Notes under the pieces: generated by a model
The model's input: the letters and a program-made list of their open reading frames with translations, nothing else
The model's database searches: none
Told to the model about the DNA's origin: nothing
Made by a program: the position numbers and the translations under genes
Source: Chloroflexota bacterium
GTDB taxonomy: Bacteria; Chloroflexota; Anaerolineae; UBA2200; JACIWT01
Assembly (NCBI GenBank): GCA_014360825.1
Contig: JACIWT010000016.1
Location: 1 to 49,560, forward strand
DNA length: 49,560 nt
Direction of reading: 5' to 3'
In this document: piece after piece, positions 10,707 to 17,387 of the stretch
Layout of the letters: each line of letters starts with the position of its first letter
Numbering within the stretch: the stretch's first letter is position 1

Positions 10707-10735
10707 TTGCCAAAGCAGCATCCTTGTGCTATACT
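10707..10735 (+). promoter_or_regulatory. Promoter of the rpsB operon
   Basis: TTGCCA (10707-10712), 17 bp, TATACT (10730-10735). It is about 150 bp upstream of rpsB and the only good promoter before the translation and lipid genes, so it probably drives rpsB through cdsA. Confidence 0.75.
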
Positions 10736-10741
10736 ATTTTT

Positions 10742-10796
10742 GCAGATCCCCTGAGAGATCTGCTATCCAGCACGCCTCCTGACTAGCCAGGCGTGC
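10742..10796 (+). promoter_or_regulatory. Two hairpins in the rpsB 5' leader
   Basis: GCAGATC/GATCTGC (10742-10763) and GCACGCCT/AGGCGTGC (10770-10796) lie directly after the promoter, within the first 60 transcribed bases. No T-run follows. Ribosomal protein S2 is known to repress its own synthesis through leader RNA in several bacteria; whether this leader does so is an inference from position. Confidence 0.45.
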
Positions 10797-10883
10797 CACT
10801 TATTGTCTTGACGCTATGCGGAAAGCAAAGGTGGTTCCTGGTTGGGAAGAGGGTGGCGGACGAATAAAACGAAGGAGGATATC

Positions 10884-11783
10884 GTGACTGTTGTTTCCAT
10901 GAAGGCCCTGTTAGAAGCAGGCGTCCACTTTGGCCACCGCAGCCAGCGATGGCACCCCAAAATGCGCCCGTTCATTTTCACTGAGCGCAATGGCATCCAC
11001 ATCATTGATCTCCAGCAAACGTTGACTCGCTTGGAGGAGGCCTACAACTTCATCCGCGACCAGGCTGCCGAAGGCGGCACAGTGCTCTTCGTGGGCACGA
11101 AGAAACAGGCCCAGGAGACCATCGCCAGCGAGGCGCAACGCTGTGGGATGCCTTATGTCAACCAACGTTGGCTGGGCGGCACTTTAACCAACTTCCGCAC
11201 CATCCGGCAGCGGGCGGATTATCTGCTGGAGTTGGAAGCGCAAAAGGCACGGGGCGAGTTCGACCTGCTCCCAAAGAAAGAGGCCTTGTGGAAGGAGCGC
11301 GAACTCAGCAAACTGCAGCGGCGTTTGGGCGGGCTGAAGAACATGTACTATCTCCCCAGTGCTCTTTTCATCACGGACGTTCGCCGCGAGGCCATTGCCA
11401 TCAAAGAGGCAAACACCCTAGGCATTCCGGTTGTGGCTATGGTAGATACCAACTGTGACCCAGATCCCATTGATTATGTCATCCCTGCCAACGATGATGC
11501 GATCCGCGCCATCAGGTTAATCACCTCGGTCATAGCCAATGCGGTCATCGAGGGCCAGGGTATGCGCGGCGTCATCATGGCCGAGGAGGGCGCGGAAGCA
11601 GTGGAAGCGCCCGTCTCAGCAGAAGGGCTGCCCAGGGTTTTCTCGCCCGAGGAGGAGGTCATTGAAGAGGAGGTCCCCATCTCGATTGAGGGATTGCCCA
11701 GAGTCTTCTCGCCAGAGCCCGACGAAGAAGCGAATCCCCAAGACGAAGAGCAGGCCGAGAAAGAGCATTCCAGCCTGGCATAA
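10884..11783 (+). CDS. rpsB: Small ribosomal subunit protein S2
   Basis: 299 residues from GTG 10884, which has GAAGGAGG 5 bp upstream; an in-frame ATG at 10842 precedes the ribosome site. S2 hallmarks: [22 protein letters not shown] at the N terminus, [39 protein letters not shown] and [23 protein letters not shown]. The protein binds the 30S head late in assembly. It is longer than usual (S2 is commonly 230-260 residues): an acidic tail of about 60 residues carries two copies of [10 protein letters not shown] separated by a run of Glu. First gene of the conserved rpsB-tsf-pyrH-frr order. Confidence 0.96.
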
Positions 11784-11791
11784 TCTAAGAG

Positions 11792-11817
11792 GGCGGACTG
11801 TACTCATACAGTCCGCC
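11792..11817 (+). promoter_or_regulatory. Hairpin between rpsB and tsf
   Basis: A perfect 11-bp stem, GGCGGACTGTA (11792-11802) with TACAGTCCGCC (11807-11817), four-base loop. The following TTACAGTG is too poor in T for an efficient terminator, so partial attenuation or message stabilisation between rpsB and tsf is more likely. Confidence 0.55.
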
Positions 11818-11850
11818 TTACAGTGATAATATCGGAATCAAAGGAGAACG

Positions 11851-12444
11851 ATGAACATCACGACCGACATGGTCAAACAACTCCGCGAAATGACCGGCGC
11901 GGGGATTTTAGACTGCAAGAAAACGTTAGAGGCTACTAACGGCGATATGGAAAAGGCCGCCGCCATACTTTACAAAAAGGGATTGGCACAAGCCGCTAAG
12001 AAGGCCGATCGCGAGGCCAAAGACGGCGTGATTGGCGTCTATGTGCATAACACGCAGAAATTGGTGGGGTTGGTGGAATTGAACTGCGAGACCGATTTCG
12101 TCTCGCGCCTGGACGAGTTCCGCGCACTCGCCCGCGACCTGGCTATGCAGGTGGCAGGATACCATCCTCTCTACCTGCGCGTCGAGGATATACCAGAGGA
12201 GGTGCTCCTCGCCCAGCGGCAACTTATCCGCGCTGAGTTGGCAGATAGTTCCAAATCAGAGGGCGAAAAAGGCCTGCTTGTGGAAAGCCGCCTTAAGAAA
12301 TGGTTTGAGGAAGTGGTTCTCTTGGAGCAACACTTCTTCCGCGATGAGAACAAGACAGTGCGCGATGTCCTAAATGAGGCTATCGCCAAATTTGGTGAGA
12401 ATGTCGTGTTGCGCCGCTTCGTGCGCTTTGAGTTGGGCGAATAA
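11851..12444 (+). CDS. tsf: Elongation factor Ts
   Basis: 197 residues with AAGGAG 4-5 bp before ATG 11851. The N-terminal UBA-like domain (TTDMVKQLREMTGAGILDCKKTLEATNGDMEKA) and the core motif LNCETDFVSR identify EF-Ts, the nucleotide exchange factor that releases GDP from EF-Tu. Length matches the short type that has one core subdomain, as in Thermus, rather than the roughly 280-residue enterobacterial form. It follows rpsB as in most bacteria, with an 11-bp-stem hairpin between them. Confidence 0.96.
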   Translation: MNITTDMVKQLREMTGAGILDCKKTLEATNGDMEKAAAILYKKGLAQAAKKADREAKDGVIGVYVHNTQKLVGLVELNCETDFVSRLDEFRALARDLAMQVAGYHPLYLRVEDIPEEVLLAQRQLIRAELADSSKSEGEKGLLVESRLKKWFEEVVLLEQHFFRDENKTVRDVLNEAIAKFGENVVLRRFVRFELGE

Positions 12445-12474
12445 CGAAGCCAAGCACATGGGAGAATAACCCAC

Positions 12475-13191
12475 ATGGCGAAGGTCAAATACAGGCGCAT
12501 CTTGTTAAAGATGGGCGGCGAAGCCATGGCCGGTAAGTCAGGATATGGCATCGATCCAGTCGTCGTGGACGGAGTTTCCGCACAGATCAGGAACGTCCGC
12601 GACCTAGAAGTGCAAGTGGCTATTGTCGTCGGGGCTGGGAACATCTGGCGCGGCAGGGATGGCTTGGCCCGCGGGATGGACCGGGCTACCGCCGACTACA
12701 TTGGCATGCTGGCCACCGTGATGAATTCACTGGCCCTGCAGGATTCGCTGGAGCGCATGGGGGTCGAAACGCGGGTGCAGACAGCCATCGAGATGCGCGC
12801 GGTGGCAGAGCCATATATCCGGCGGCGGGCTATCCGGCATTTGGAGAAGGGTCGCGTGGTCATCTTCGGCGCGGGGACCGGTAACCCGTATTTCACTGCT
12901 GATACCGCTGCTGCTCTGCGGGCAATGGAAATTGACGCCGAAGTCCTACTGAAAGCCACCAAAGTAGATGGCATATACGACTGTGACCCGGTCACTAATC
13001 CGAACGCGAAACGGTTCGAACATCTGAGTTACATAGAGGCGCTGAATTTGGGCGTCCAGGTAATGGACTCGACTGCTCTATCGCTCTGCATGGACAATGA
13101 CCTACCCATCATCGTCTTCAAACTAAGCGAGCCACGTAGCATCGAGAGAGTAGTATTGGGTGACAACATCGGCACTATCGTCTGCCGATGA
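12475..13191 (+). CDS. pyrH: UMP kinase
   Basis: 238 residues, standard length. Amino-acid-kinase fold with [15 protein letters not shown] at the N terminus, [30 protein letters not shown] (UMP kinase signature), [20 protein letters not shown] and [11 protein letters not shown]. It phosphorylates UMP to UDP with ATP, the last shared step before UTP and CTP. Unlike eukaryotic UMP/CMP kinase it is hexameric. It sits 30 bp after tsf and 45 bp before frr in the usual order. Confidence 0.96.
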
Positions 13192-13236
13192 GGTAGCACG
13201 GAAACAACCCCTTACGATTCGAACACACGGAGACTG

Positions 13237-13806
13237 ATGATGAGCGATGAAGCCCTGCTCGTGCTAATGGAGGCCTCAGAACGCATGGAAAAGGCGGTCG
13301 AGGCACTGCGCGCGGATCTACTGAGCATCCGCACGGGGCGTGCCTCACCTGCCCTCGTCGAGCGCCTCAAAGTGGACTATTACGACTCTCCCACCCCGCT
13401 TAATCAGCTCGCTACTATCTCGGTGCCTGAACCGAGACTGATCGTCATCCGCCCGTGGGATCCCAACGTGATAAGCAATATCGAAAAGGCGATCCTGAAG
13501 TCCGATCTGGGACTCACGCCAATCAACGATGGGCGACTAATTCGTTTGAACATTCCTCCGCTCACCGAAGAGCGAAGGCAGGAACTGGTAAAACTCGTGA
13601 ATCGTCGTGTGGAAGAGGGGCGCGTGGCCATCCGCAACATCCGGCGCGACACCCTAGAGGACCTACGCAAGTTGGAAAAAGACAAACTCATCTCAGAGGA
13701 TGAGTTCTACAAGGCGAAGGACGACCTCCAAGAACTCACCGACGAATACATCGAGAAAATTGATACATTGGGCCAGCAGAAGCAAGACGAGATTATGGAA
13801 ATCTAA
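13237..13806 (+). CDS. frr: Ribosome recycling factor
   Basis: 189 residues. [51 protein letters not shown] near the N terminus and [21 protein letters not shown] further on are RRF signatures. With EF-G it splits post-termination ribosomes. Two consecutive ATGs exist (13237 and 13240); CGGAG lies 4 bp from the first and 7 bp from the second, so the second may be the real start. The gene follows pyrH and is 15 bp from uppS. Confidence 0.96.
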
Positions 13807-13821
13807 CCGAGTAGGAGGAGG

Positions 13822-14559
13822 ATGGGTTATCCAGAGGAAACGGCGTCGGCAAAAGAACTGAAGGTTGTCCCCGTTCATGTGGCCATCATCATGGACGGTA
13901 ACGGCCGTTGGGCCCAGCAGCGTGGCCTGCCCCGCACTGCAGGACACCGCGCCGGTACTGAGAACATCCGCACCGTCTTACAAGCCGCCGTTGATTTCGG
14001 CATCCAATATCTCACCTTATTCGCTTTCTCCACGGAGAACTGGGGACGCCCTGCGGAGGAAGTGCGGGCGTTGATGATGCTCTTGGAGCAGGTGATCGAT
14101 CGCGAGTTGGCTGAACTGCATGCCAAAGGGGTGCGATTGCGCCATCTGGGCCGGCTCGATGCCCTGCCCAGCAAACTGCAAGAGAAGATCCAGCATGCCT
14201 TGGAACTCACCAAAGACAATACGCGCATCAGCGTGAACATCGCCTTCAACTATGGAGGGCGGATGGAAATAGTGGAGGCGGTGCGCCGCATGATGCATGA
14301 GGGCGTGAGGCCTGATGAAGTGACAGAGGAGACTCTGAGCAAATACCTCTTCACTGCAGGTCTCCCTGACCCCGACCTTATCATCCGTACTGCCGGTGAG
14401 ATGCGCCTCAGCAATTTTCTCATCTGGCAGGCTGCGTACGCGGAATACTATTCCACCCCTACTTACTGGCCAGACTTTGGACGAGAGGAGCTTTACAAGG
14501 CATTGCTTGCTTATGCTCAACGCGACAGGCGTTTCGGGTTGCTCAAGCCTGCGTCTTAG
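13822..14559 (+). CDS. uppS: Isoprenyl (undecaprenyl) diphosphate synthase
   Basis: 245 residues. The cis-prenyltransferase signature [22 protein letters not shown] near residue 22 contains the catalytic Asp, and [22 protein letters not shown] near the C terminus holds the second conserved block. It condenses isopentenyl diphosphate onto farnesyl diphosphate to make the C55 carrier used for peptidoglycan and other cell-surface glycans. AGGAGG sits about 4 bp before the ATG. It joins the translation genes to cdsA, the order seen in many bacteria. Confidence 0.95.
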
Positions 14560-14581
14560 AAGCAGTGGGAAGGCTCTCGTT

Positions 14582-15382
14582 ATGCTACGCACGCGGGTTT
14601 TAACCGCCGTCATCGCCATACCCATAGTCCTCGCCGTTGCCTACCTGGGCGGTTGGTGGTTCTATCTGCCCTTGGCTGCTATTCTACTCCTAGGCGGACA
14701 TGAATTCTGCGCCCTGATGCGTTCCGCCGGTTACAATCCATCTGAACCCGCCTGTCTGGGCCTCATTGCCGCGCTCCTGATAGATGCTATTTTCCCTGGC
14801 TATCGGATTGGGCGCTTTGCATTAGTCGCCACCATTGCCATAGAGGCCACCCGACATATTGTCCGCAACCAAACGAAGGGCTTCTTGGTGAACTGGGCTC
14901 TCATGTTGACCGGAGCGCTTTATGTGGGCGGATTGGGCAGCCATTTCATCACGTTGCGGGCGTTGCCAGGTGGCTTTGGATGGCTGGCGTTGGCTGCCAT
15001 ACCCACCTGGGTATGCGATAGCGCTGCCTATTTTGTTGGCACCAGTAGGGGGAGACAAGGCTTCTTCACCACCATTAGCCCACACAAGACTTGGGAGGGT
15101 TTTATCGGAGGGTGGTTCAGCGGGGCGATAGCGGCTGTGGGAGCAGGGCTCTTTTTGAAACTGACGCTTGCGCAAGCCATTGTGCTAGGGTTAATACTTC
15201 CACTTGCGGCCACATTTGGCGATCTGGCCGAGTCGTTGCTGAAACGACAGGTAGGAGCCAAGGACTCCGGGACGTTTTTCCCGGGTCATGGGGGTGTGTT
15301 GGATCGAGCGGATAGTTTGCTGTTTGTAGTGCCCCTGGTCTATTATTATCTCATATGGATCGTGGGCATTACGGCAAGGTAG
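14582..15382 (+). CDS. cdsA: Phosphatidate cytidylyltransferase
   Basis: 266 residues from ATG 14582; open codons further upstream overlap uppS and lack a hydrophobic start. It is an integral membrane protein of about seven or eight helices, beginning LTAVIAIPIVLAVAYLGGWW. The CDP-diglyceride synthase signature is near the C terminus: KRQVGAKDSGTFFPGHGGVLDRADSL. It makes CDP-diacylglycerol from phosphatidate and CTP for phospholipid synthesis. It follows uppS by 22 bp. The genes that often come next (dxr, rseP) are missing; a sensor-like gene takes their place. Confidence 0.94.
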   Translation: MLRTRVLTAVIAIPIVLAVAYLGGWWFYLPLAAILLLGGHEFCALMRSAGYNPSEPACLGLIAALLIDAIFPGYRIGRFALVATIAIEATRHIVRNQTKGFLVNWALMLTGALYVGGLGSHFITLRALPGGFGWLALAAIPTWVCDSAAYFVGTSRGRQGFFTTISPHKTWEGFIGGWFSGAIAAVGAGLFLKLTLAQAIVLGLILPLAATFGDLAESLLKRQVGAKDSGTFFPGHGGVLDRADSLLFVVPLVYYYLIWIVGITAR

Positions 15383-15402: not shown

Positions 15403-17337
15403 ATGGTCATCGAAGGGATAACGCTCATCTCGATCCTCTCACTGCTGAACCTGATACTGGCTTCGGCCAACGTGATCATCGCCTTTTCACTGTTGGTCTA
15501 TATCCTGACGCAGAACTATCACAGCGCGGTGGCGAGAGCCTTCTGTGCGTTGATGACCTTCGTGCTGATCGTCTTCGCTGTGGATGTGATCACCCCGAAT
15601 GTGGTCTCCACAGAGGATATGATCCGTTGGATGCGCTTGCAATGGCTGGGTATCGCCTTCGTTCCCGCCGCGTGCTTGCATTTCTCCGATACCATGCTAC
15701 AAACGACCAACTCGATTTCCACTGTGCGCCGGGCTTTGGTGGTTCTGGGCTATCTGGCTAGTGGCGCTTTCTTCGCCTTGGCTGCCGGGAGCGATTTGAT
15801 CGTGCACGATGGCGTGCGTATGGGATACATTGACCATCTCGCTCCCGGACCACTGTTCAACCTATTTACCTTCTATTTCTTCACCTGCGTTTTGATTGGC
15901 GTGGTGAACATCTTTCGGGCCCGGCAACGGTGCCTTACCTCCACCTCCCGGCGTCGCATGGGCCGCCTGACGGTGGCAATTGCTGCACCAGGGTTGGGAG
16001 TTTTCCCTTACTTGCTGGTAGCCACCCTGGCTGGTCGGGTTCCAACTCAAATTGTGTTGGCCCTCGCCCTGCTCAGCAATGTGGGCATTGCTCTGATGAA
16101 CATCGTGATTGCCTACACCGTCGCCTTCCAGGGCGTATTCACCCCCGATCGGGTCATCAAGCACAACCTCATCCACTACCTCCTGCGCGGGCCATTGGTG
16201 GCCTCGGCTGTCATACTCGCTGTGCTGGTGATCCCCCGTGTGGAGCGTATCCTGGGTCTGCCGCGCGACACCGTGCTCATTTTCACCGTTGCCATTGGCA
16301 TCGTGCTCTTCCAGGTGTTTATTAACGTCGCCAAGCCTTATATTGATCGCCTTATCTATCGCAAAGATCGCGACGAGATCACCTGGATACAGCAATTGGA
16401 CACACGCCTGCTCACGAGTTCTGACCTGGAGCAGATTTTGGAGAACGTGCTCATCGCGTTATGCGATCTCCTGCGAGCACCGAGCGGTTTCGTTTTGGCT
16501 ATTGACGATGATGGGCCACGAATGCGCGTCTTTTGCGGCCCCCAACGCATCGCCAATGCTTTTATAGAGAAGAGCGATGTCCGGGCACTACTAGCGGAGT
16601 TCAACGCCCAGCCACGGGAAGAAGGAACCAGCCCAGTGGCGGAGATATTGATCCGTGACGGTTATTGGCTGCTACCTCTGCGGACCGAAAACGGCCAGGC
16701 TACTTTGGGCATTCTGGGGGTTCGTCGCCGAGGCGCGCCTGACCTGAGCGATGAACAGATGGAAATCGTGGCCGGATTGGTGGGACAGGCGGAGCTGGCT
16801 CTATATGATATTCAGTTGCAGCGCGAAGTATTTGATGCACTGCAACACATTGTCCCCGAAATCGACCAGTTGCAACGGCTGCGGAGTCTGCCGCCATACC
16901 TCAGTCCGGTGCCGGTGGGGCGCGGCGGAGGTAGTGTGATCTCGGATCCAGAGTTCCAGAAGATAGTGAAGGACGCACTCAGCCACTACTGGGGAGGCCC
17001 GCGACTTACGACAAGCCCGCTCCTGCAATTGCGCACAGTGCAAGAGGCGATGGAGAAAAGCGGCGGTGTACCGTCGCGTGCTCTGCGCGCCGTATTGAAA
17101 GAAGCCATCGAACGGCTGAAACCCGACGGTCCTCGCAGCATGACCGCCGCAGAATGGGTGCTGTACAACATCCTGGAGATGAAGTATATCCAGGGCCGAC
17201 GCATTCGAGAGATAGCAGATCGCATGGCGATCAGTGAGCCAGATTTCTATCGCAAGCAGCGCGCAGCCATCGAGGAATTAGCGAAGACCCTGGCAGCAAT
17301 GGAACTGGAACGCACCGGCCAGGCGTCGGCAAGTTAG
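15403..17337 (+). CDS. Membrane sensor: 7TM region, GAF domain, C-terminal HTH-like region
   Basis: 644 residues. About residues 1-300 contain eight or so hydrophobic helices resembling the 7TM sensor region found in front of some histidine kinases (LISILSLLNLILASANVIIAFSLLVYIL first). Residues about 325-475 look like a GAF domain (LLTSSDLEQILENVLIALCDLLRAPSGFVLAIDDDG; LLPLRTENGQATLGILGVRRRG). There is no HisKA or ATPase domain. The last 130 residues are helical and include IREIADRMAISEPDFYRKQRAAIEELAKTL, which reads like a helix-turn-helix of the sigma-region-4 type. That would make it a membrane-bound one-component regulator. It begins 20 bp after cdsA and probably shares its message. The HTH assignment is an inference. 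Confidence 0.65.
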   Translation: MVIEGITLISILSLLNLILASANVIIAFSLLVYILTQNYHSAVARAFCALMTFVLIVFAVDVITPNVVSTEDMIRWMRLQWLGIAFVPAACLHFSDTMLQTTNSISTVRRALVVLGYLASGAFFALAAGSDLIVHDGVRMGYIDHLAPGPLFNLFTFYFFTCVLIGVVNIFRARQRCLTSTSRRRMGRLTVAIAAPGLGVFPYLLVATLAGRVPTQIVLALALLSNVGIALMNIVIAYTVAFQGVFTPDRVIKHNLIHYLLRGPLVASAVILAVLVIPRVERILGLPRDTVLIFTVAIGIVLFQVFINVAKPYIDRLIYRKDRDEITWIQQLDTRLLTSSDLEQILENVLIALCDLLRAPSGFVLAIDDDGPRMRVFCGPQRIANAFIEKSDVRALLAEFNAQPREEGTSPVAEILIRDGYWLLPLRTENGQATLGILGVRRRGAPDLSDEQMEIVAGLVGQAELALYDIQLQREVFDALQHIVPEIDQLQRLRSLPPYLSPVPVGRGGGSVISDPEFQKIVKDALSHYWGGPRLTTSPLLQLRTVQEAMEKSGGVPSRALRAVLKEAIERLKPDGPRSMTAAEWVLYNILEMKYIQGRRIREIADRMAISEPDFYRKQRAAIEELAKTLAAMELERTGQASAS

Positions 17338-17359: not shown

Positions 17360-17387
17360 TTGACAGACTACGGAGAATCGCTATACT
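17360..17387 (+). promoter_or_regulatory. Promoter of the cyclase-family gene
   Basis: TTGACA (17360-17365), 16 bp, TATACT (17382-17387). Transcription would begin only about 10 bases before the ATG at 17404, giving a very short leader. Confidence 0.75.

Follow-up and report, generated by a model that had tools for sequence, protein, structure and literature searches.

The gene at positions 15403–17337 (+ strand) of the window, the 49,560-nucleotide stretch of DNA analyzed here, encodes a 644-residue protein that is probably a membrane-anchored one-component transcription regulator. From N to C terminus it is built from a core of seven membrane helices, a further pair of them, a GAF domain and a long helix, and it ends in a sigma4-like helix-turn-helix (HTH) tail. 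The protein represents a widely conserved, previously undescribed regulator of Chloroflexota, and no description of such an architecture was found in the literature searched. With a predicted DNA-binding tail of its own, it probably acts on its genes directly at the cell membrane. The family provides a nearly universal membrane regulator for a group in which few transcription factors have been studied, and its near-invariant recognition helix makes the DNA target findable by one in-vitro experiment.

The reading frame is intact and open from an ATG start. A seven-helix membrane core (residues 8–244; 15424–16134, +) was recognized by Pfam, by the structure model and by hydropathy with loop charges, and is followed by two extra membrane helices (residues 249–318; 16147–16356, +) seen in hydropathy and in the model, which place the C-terminal half in the cytoplasm by prediction. 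The core matched HisKA_7TM (PF16927) over residues 24–224 (4.5e-13, 50 bits versus a Pfam cut-off of 28.6), which bears out the proposal of a first-pass annotation that the sensor half is of histidine-kinase type. The full-length structure model (mean pLDDT 89.9) contained nine membrane helices, seven between residues 8 and 244 and then 249–284 and 288–318, with a beta hairpin (134–148) joining helix 4 to helix 5. The mean hydropathy of 81 sequences and the loop charges, judged by eye, fit nine helices with the N terminus outside and the C terminus inside; here 12 peaks above 1.3 were merged with the model helices into nine, and a peak at 358, inside the GAF domain, was set aside. The GAF domain (residues 340–467; 16420–16803, +) was identified by Pfam (GAF_2, 4.1e-6, 27.5 bits, just under the cut-off of 28.6), the model, and GAF-domain rows in Foldseek, and the model shows a long helix leaving it (residues 450–495; 16750–16887, +), which is probably a signalling or dimer helix. 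The chain ends in a tail domain common to other Chloroflexota proteins (residues 517–643; 16951–17331, +), whose last part is an HTH resembling sigma-70 region 4 (helices 586–596, 601–608 and 612–643; 17158–17331, +). The whole protein gave no Pfam match to HisKA, HATPase_c or Response_reg at E up to 10, and the modelled order of GAF, helix and tail contained no kinase core (HisKA + HATPase_c), so the kinase domains are missing, as had been noted before. The nine predicted helices and the HTH-type tail likewise support the earlier description of the product as a putative membrane-bound regulator.

Modelled alone, the tail reached a mean pLDDT of 83.2, with 91–96 over its residues 91–140, the HTH. 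Foldseek against the PDB returned sigma factors or their complexes in 17 of the 20 best rows, counting BldN and WhiG as sigma factors, and DosR, a model titled RPSB-RPOC and a mycobacterial initiation complex in the other three; no row reached E 0.001 (best 0.062). VIA-align put the phage antiterminator Q21 first (Z 7.6, 97 residues, 3.5 Å) and ECF sigma domain 4 at Z of about 6–7, a BldN chain aligning over 59 residues at 1.5 Å with 27% identity; Q21 and several sigma domains were tied within 1 Z unit, all below Z 8, a level that helical domains reach by arrangement alone. At the sequence level, the tail matched phage families in PHROGs, a transcriptional activator (7.5e-8) and a transcriptional regulator (1.1e-7). 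Pfam DUF1492 scored 20.4 bits on the whole protein (cut-off 21.5) and 23.1–23.4 bits on the tail alone, and Sigma70_r4_2 stayed under its cut-off on the query protein; at E up to 1, the two models matched 70 and 44 of the 81 tails, respectively. No Pfam match over cut-off spanned the whole tail, and a PDB sequence search with the tail profile gave nothing significant (best E 0.21). An NCBIfam ECF sigma model matched only at its positions 124–164 of 165, and sigma region 2, which binds the -10 element, had no match in Pfam or NCBIfam, the remaining protein being 7TM and GAF; because it lacks region 2, the protein cannot be a sigma factor.

Conservation by region, expressed as mean majority-residue identity over 81 sequences, was 0.589 in the 7TM part, 0.499 in the GAF domain, 0.521 in the linker, 0.672 in the first half of the tail and 0.763 in the HTH, and was highest, at 0.931, in residues 611–622 (17233–17268, +), the start of the near-invariant recognition helix, which carries basic residues. 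Judged from the sigma-4-like models, the similarity to PHROGs and Pfam families and this peak of conservation, the C terminus is most likely DNA-binding. The HTH-like C terminus first read from the sequence was confirmed by the models and PHROGs, though weakly in Pfam, and the region models as a sigma-70 region-4-like HTH and not as a non-DNA-binding helical bundle. Since the recognition helix begins with residues that hardly vary within the family, the DNA target, too, is probably conserved. Against the reading as a one-component regulator stand the Z values below 8, Pfam HTH matches at or below cut-off on the whole protein, the outcome of the operator search, one genome without a match (G050), and the fact that HTH-like domains can serve protein contacts.

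In the mechanism that we propose, the nine membrane helices are predicted to hold the GAF domain and the tail on the cytoplasmic side, and the chain is predicted to pass from the GAF domain through a 46-residue helix to the C-terminal domain with its sigma-region-4-like HTH, with no kinase or receiver module. The 7TM bundle would sense a ligand outside the cell or dissolved in the membrane, and the GAF domain one in the cytoplasm. The signal would travel down the helix that leaves the GAF domain, in what is probably a dimer, and would change the DNA binding or RNA polymerase contact of the HTH, so that transcription would be altered at the membrane without phosphotransfer. The evidence does not single out the gene's own operon as its target.

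A search with the tail profile (E up to 1e-5) found one copy in the genome of the window and at least one in 58 of 60 genomes, that genome included; 17 copies in a single genome (G034) look like a lineage-specific regulator expansion. We examined 20 loci whose match was confined to the tail, together with six full-length-type paralogue loci. In 15 of the 20 tail-only loci, the tail began the protein or lay close to its N terminus, and all four of these 15 that were scanned (L034, L035, L038 and L044) carried a C-terminal REC domain. It also ended an nSTAND ATPase (L040:1602-2960), a HisKA_7TM protein (L045) and a GAF-containing paralogue (L101), and made up almost the entire protein at L043; L037 and L106 gave no Pfam match. 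A solute-binding-protein gene lay divergent from the tail gene in six of the 20 tail-only loci (L033, L034, L035, L036, L038 and L042), all among the 15 with an N-terminal tail. This count includes only the six of nine candidates (five by short motif and four by phmmer) that Pfam confirmed; the neighbours at L032, L048 and L049 had no match at 1e-5 and were dropped. The tail, of about 125 residues, looks like an output module common to REC proteins encoded next to sugar-transporter-type genes, an nSTAND ATPase, 7TM proteins and small stand-alone proteins, which points to an undescribed output domain serving several signalling architectures within one phylum. In viral contigs, 10 stretches fitted a pattern but none was confirmed as a relative of the tail, which lends no support to a phage origin. 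A wider picture, unlikely as a whole, is that a seven-helix GPCR-like prokaryotic receptor relays through the GAF domain to a sigma-4/antiterminator-like module acting on RNA polymerase or DNA at the membrane. The protein would then be a core regulator conserved in this Chloroflexota class, and the tail a phylum-wide output domain also used by REC and STAND proteins.

The tail might instead be a sigma-4- or antiterminator-like module that mainly touches RNA polymerase in the style of phage Q or ArpU, making the protein a membrane-tethered polymerase modulator and not a classical operator-binding factor. Q21 was the best whole-tail structural match, weaker PHROGs rows included a Q-like antiterminator family (0.021) and sigma families (0.004 and 0.061), and Pfam Phage_antitermQ matched weakly (0.15–0.19). 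However, the tie of Q21 with sigma domains, the Foldseek ranking, in which sigma domains come first with no significant row, and the resemblance to ordinary regulators of REC-linked relatives divergent from transporter-type genes make this unlikely.

As a membrane-anchored one-component regulator, the protein would resemble the transmembrane transcription regulators (TTRs) CadC, ToxR and TcpP, which likewise combine one or more membrane segments and a DNA-binding domain in one polypeptide without a phosphorelay, an arrangement that is predicted here. A TTR survey puts single-pass proteins at about 56%, with up to 22 membrane regions in some, and reports that hybrid TTRs, which contain a kinase or receiver, make up a high fraction in Chloroflexota; CadC/ToxR-type regulators show that DNA is reachable from the membrane (PMC10269533). 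The present protein differs from TTRs in its nine predicted membrane helices, its GAF domain and its near-universal presence in a class, and its sigma-4-like HTH sits in a domain for which Pfam has no dedicated model. With HisKA_7TM sensor histidine kinases (PF16927), a domain mentioned in archaeal kinases in part of one paper (PMC5847659), it has the 7TM sensor domain in common but an HTH output in place of HisKA/HATPase_c. Region 4 of the ECF sigma factors SigL, SigW, SigR and BldN resembles the modelled HTH, which here belongs to a membrane-bound protein. Phage late regulators have some similarity in HTH sequence (ArpU/DUF1492, phrog_248 and phrog_36) or, for Q21, in the modelled overall tail fold, but are phage proteins without this sensor. 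GPCRs resemble the protein in arrangement only, with a seven-helix bundle, an N terminus outside and a hairpin between helices 4 and 5, which presumably recalls GPCR loop 2. Comparison of the 7TM part with PDB GPCRs gave a best Foldseek value of 1.9e-4 and VIA Z up to 17.1 (225 residues, 4.1 Å), with 7–12% identity among the 50 matches listed, and this protein is prokaryotic. We claim no GPCR kinship, since arrangement alone lets helical bundles score high and the structure library abounds in GPCRs; the likeness may reflect a common seven-helix arrangement.

In the window, rpsB, tsf, pyrH, frr, uppS and cdsA (10842–15382, +) lie upstream of the 7TM gene and are co-directional with it. The cdsA ORF (14396–15382), in which the gene itself appears to start at about 14582, ends 20 nt before the ATG of the 7TM gene. 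Promoter-like sites were located before rpsB (10707–10735) and just after the 7TM gene (17360–17387, +; 11 of 12), the second of which weakly suggests that the 7TM gene ends the operon; such sites prove nothing alone, since five were found where shuffles give 4.5. Neighbours, assigned by match midpoints, were compared in a named set of loci (best 80 of 562) and a second set (49), which share genomes, so that their counts are not additive. The upstream neighbour was most commonly a GNAT acetyltransferase gene (43 of the 78 named loci with upstream data; 26/48 in the second set), followed by cdsA (20/78 and 15/48) and other genes (15/78 and 7/48). Downstream, an S1-domain or FtsK gene was present in 34 of 73 named loci and 16 of 47 second-set loci with downstream data, including 27 of the 43 named GNAT loci and none of the cdsA group. 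The order GNAT acetyltransferase, 7TM regulator, triple-S1 protein and FtsK recurred, for example at L062 and L064.

On a tree, one change suffices for the 21 cdsA rows, the window among them, compared with a shuffled mean of 18.8 (0/500 as low; support 85), which fits one relocation of the gene to the cdsA position; the tree is a quick one with long branches, and the direction of change rests on its midpoint root. Note that loci with an S1-domain or FtsK gene downstream and an unrecognised upstream gene were placed in the GNAT group, and two rows without upstream data were omitted. The location next to ribosome and lipid genes seems to be peculiar to one side branch, a caution against inferring function from a place in an operon that was apparently acquired once.

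The head of the operon carries an rpsB leader RNA (10766–10862, +), conserved and covarying with three helices, which starts about 30 nt past the promoter-like site before rpsB. Across 14 sequences, 14 of 21 pairs changed on both sides with pairing kept, and leader cells paired at 91.8% versus 77.5% in shuffles (0/500) and at most 57.8% when slid. A covariance model, whose training sequences came from about ten of the genomes that it hit, found the leader once per genome in 31 of 60, that of the window included. In 23 of the 31 hits, uppS followed on the same contig and strand at a distance of 2.9–4.0 kb, which is what an rpsB leader would show. Rfam 15 contained no family matching the leader, the sole row (E 1.2, other strand) being a chance match, and no known counterpart was found in the literature searched; it is probably an S2-type autoregulatory leader.

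These data bear on the first-pass proposal that the gene, as part of the rpsB–cdsA operon, is a dedicated regulator connecting membrane state to growth. The co-directional order and the 20-nt gap after the cdsA ORF stand, and the position after cdsA, whose conservation had been suggested as a check, is kept through one tree group. However, only a minority of loci in either set show this position, the gene lies elsewhere in most relatives with a single change on the tree, and the leader is also present where the 7TM gene is elsewhere (e.g. G007, G015 and G019). Co-transcription is weakened as a clue to function, and a dedicated role in this operon is improbable.

The same annotation put the gene at a site often occupied by dxr and rseP, which the relatives did not support. 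The first sizeable same-strand ORF after cdsA was scanned in 10 of 16 uppS loci fetched, and none was dxr or an RseP-type peptidase; the ORF was taken after uppS in L228, where cdsA was not found, and lay 1,350 nt away in L222. These ORFs encoded Rho (2), fructose bisphosphatase (3, two types), an MFS/Atg22-like transporter, a phosphodiesterase, a class I release factor, argininosuccinate synthase and a P-type ATPase. A search for dxr (PF02670) found none in the genome of the window (G000, 98% complete) and was positive in 10 of 14 control genomes, so isoprenoids may be made there by another route. The genome also contains a second uppS-like gene with 55% identity (G000:C8:128770-129441).

For operators, gapped dyads of 4-mers with gaps of 0–18 were counted in upstream stretches of rpsB (23), GNAT (56), FtsK (26) and S1 (32) genes, with order-1 Markov resampling as control; the S1 set reaches into the coding sequence of the preceding gene. 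No credible operator was found upstream of the rpsB, GNAT or FtsK genes, where the best signals were an ordinary promoter and the rpsB leader. The top GNAT dyad was sigma-70 promoter-like (TTGCC, then TAGAAT) and read towards the GNAT gene in 16 of 17 occurrences. A tRNA D-arm was ruled out as its source, as aragorn finds no tRNA in the 56 stretches. The dyad result would suit a C-terminal domain that is a protein–protein module (adaptor or dimer) with an HTH-like shape and no DNA function, and HTH folds are reused; the near-invariant basic recognition helix and the significant PHROGs matches to transcription regulators argue against such a module, which we consider quite improbable.

The family matched 59 of 60 genomes searched (that of the window included; relatives of at least the same class), mostly over near the whole length, with exactly one match in 36 of 60; the exception was G050 (94% completeness). 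In a phylum sample of 251 genomes, that of the window included, 72 matched. The best match exceeded 500 of 628 profile positions in 56 of 251, comprising 31 of the same class (own included) and 25 from five other families, and the remaining 16 of the 72 lie in the tail. It is likely that all same-class genomes of the sample match (31 of 31): the 20 non-matches listed are all of the same phylum only, and the other 159 are taken to be so from the sort order. A contig scan confirmed 562 stretches, of which the best 80, a choice biased to good ones, all have a full-length open frame. Decay of a hybrid histidine kinase with loss of its kinase domains and function, for which the name and description of HisKA_7TM would speak, is hardly credible given these open frames, a tail more conserved than the sensor and near-universal presence in the class. 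The titles of the best 80 of 562 name Chloroflexota/Chloroflexi or their subgroups, and such titles suggest that the class is Anaerolineae; the one exception, labelled Campylobacteraceae, branches within the family on the tree and probably reflects a binning error.
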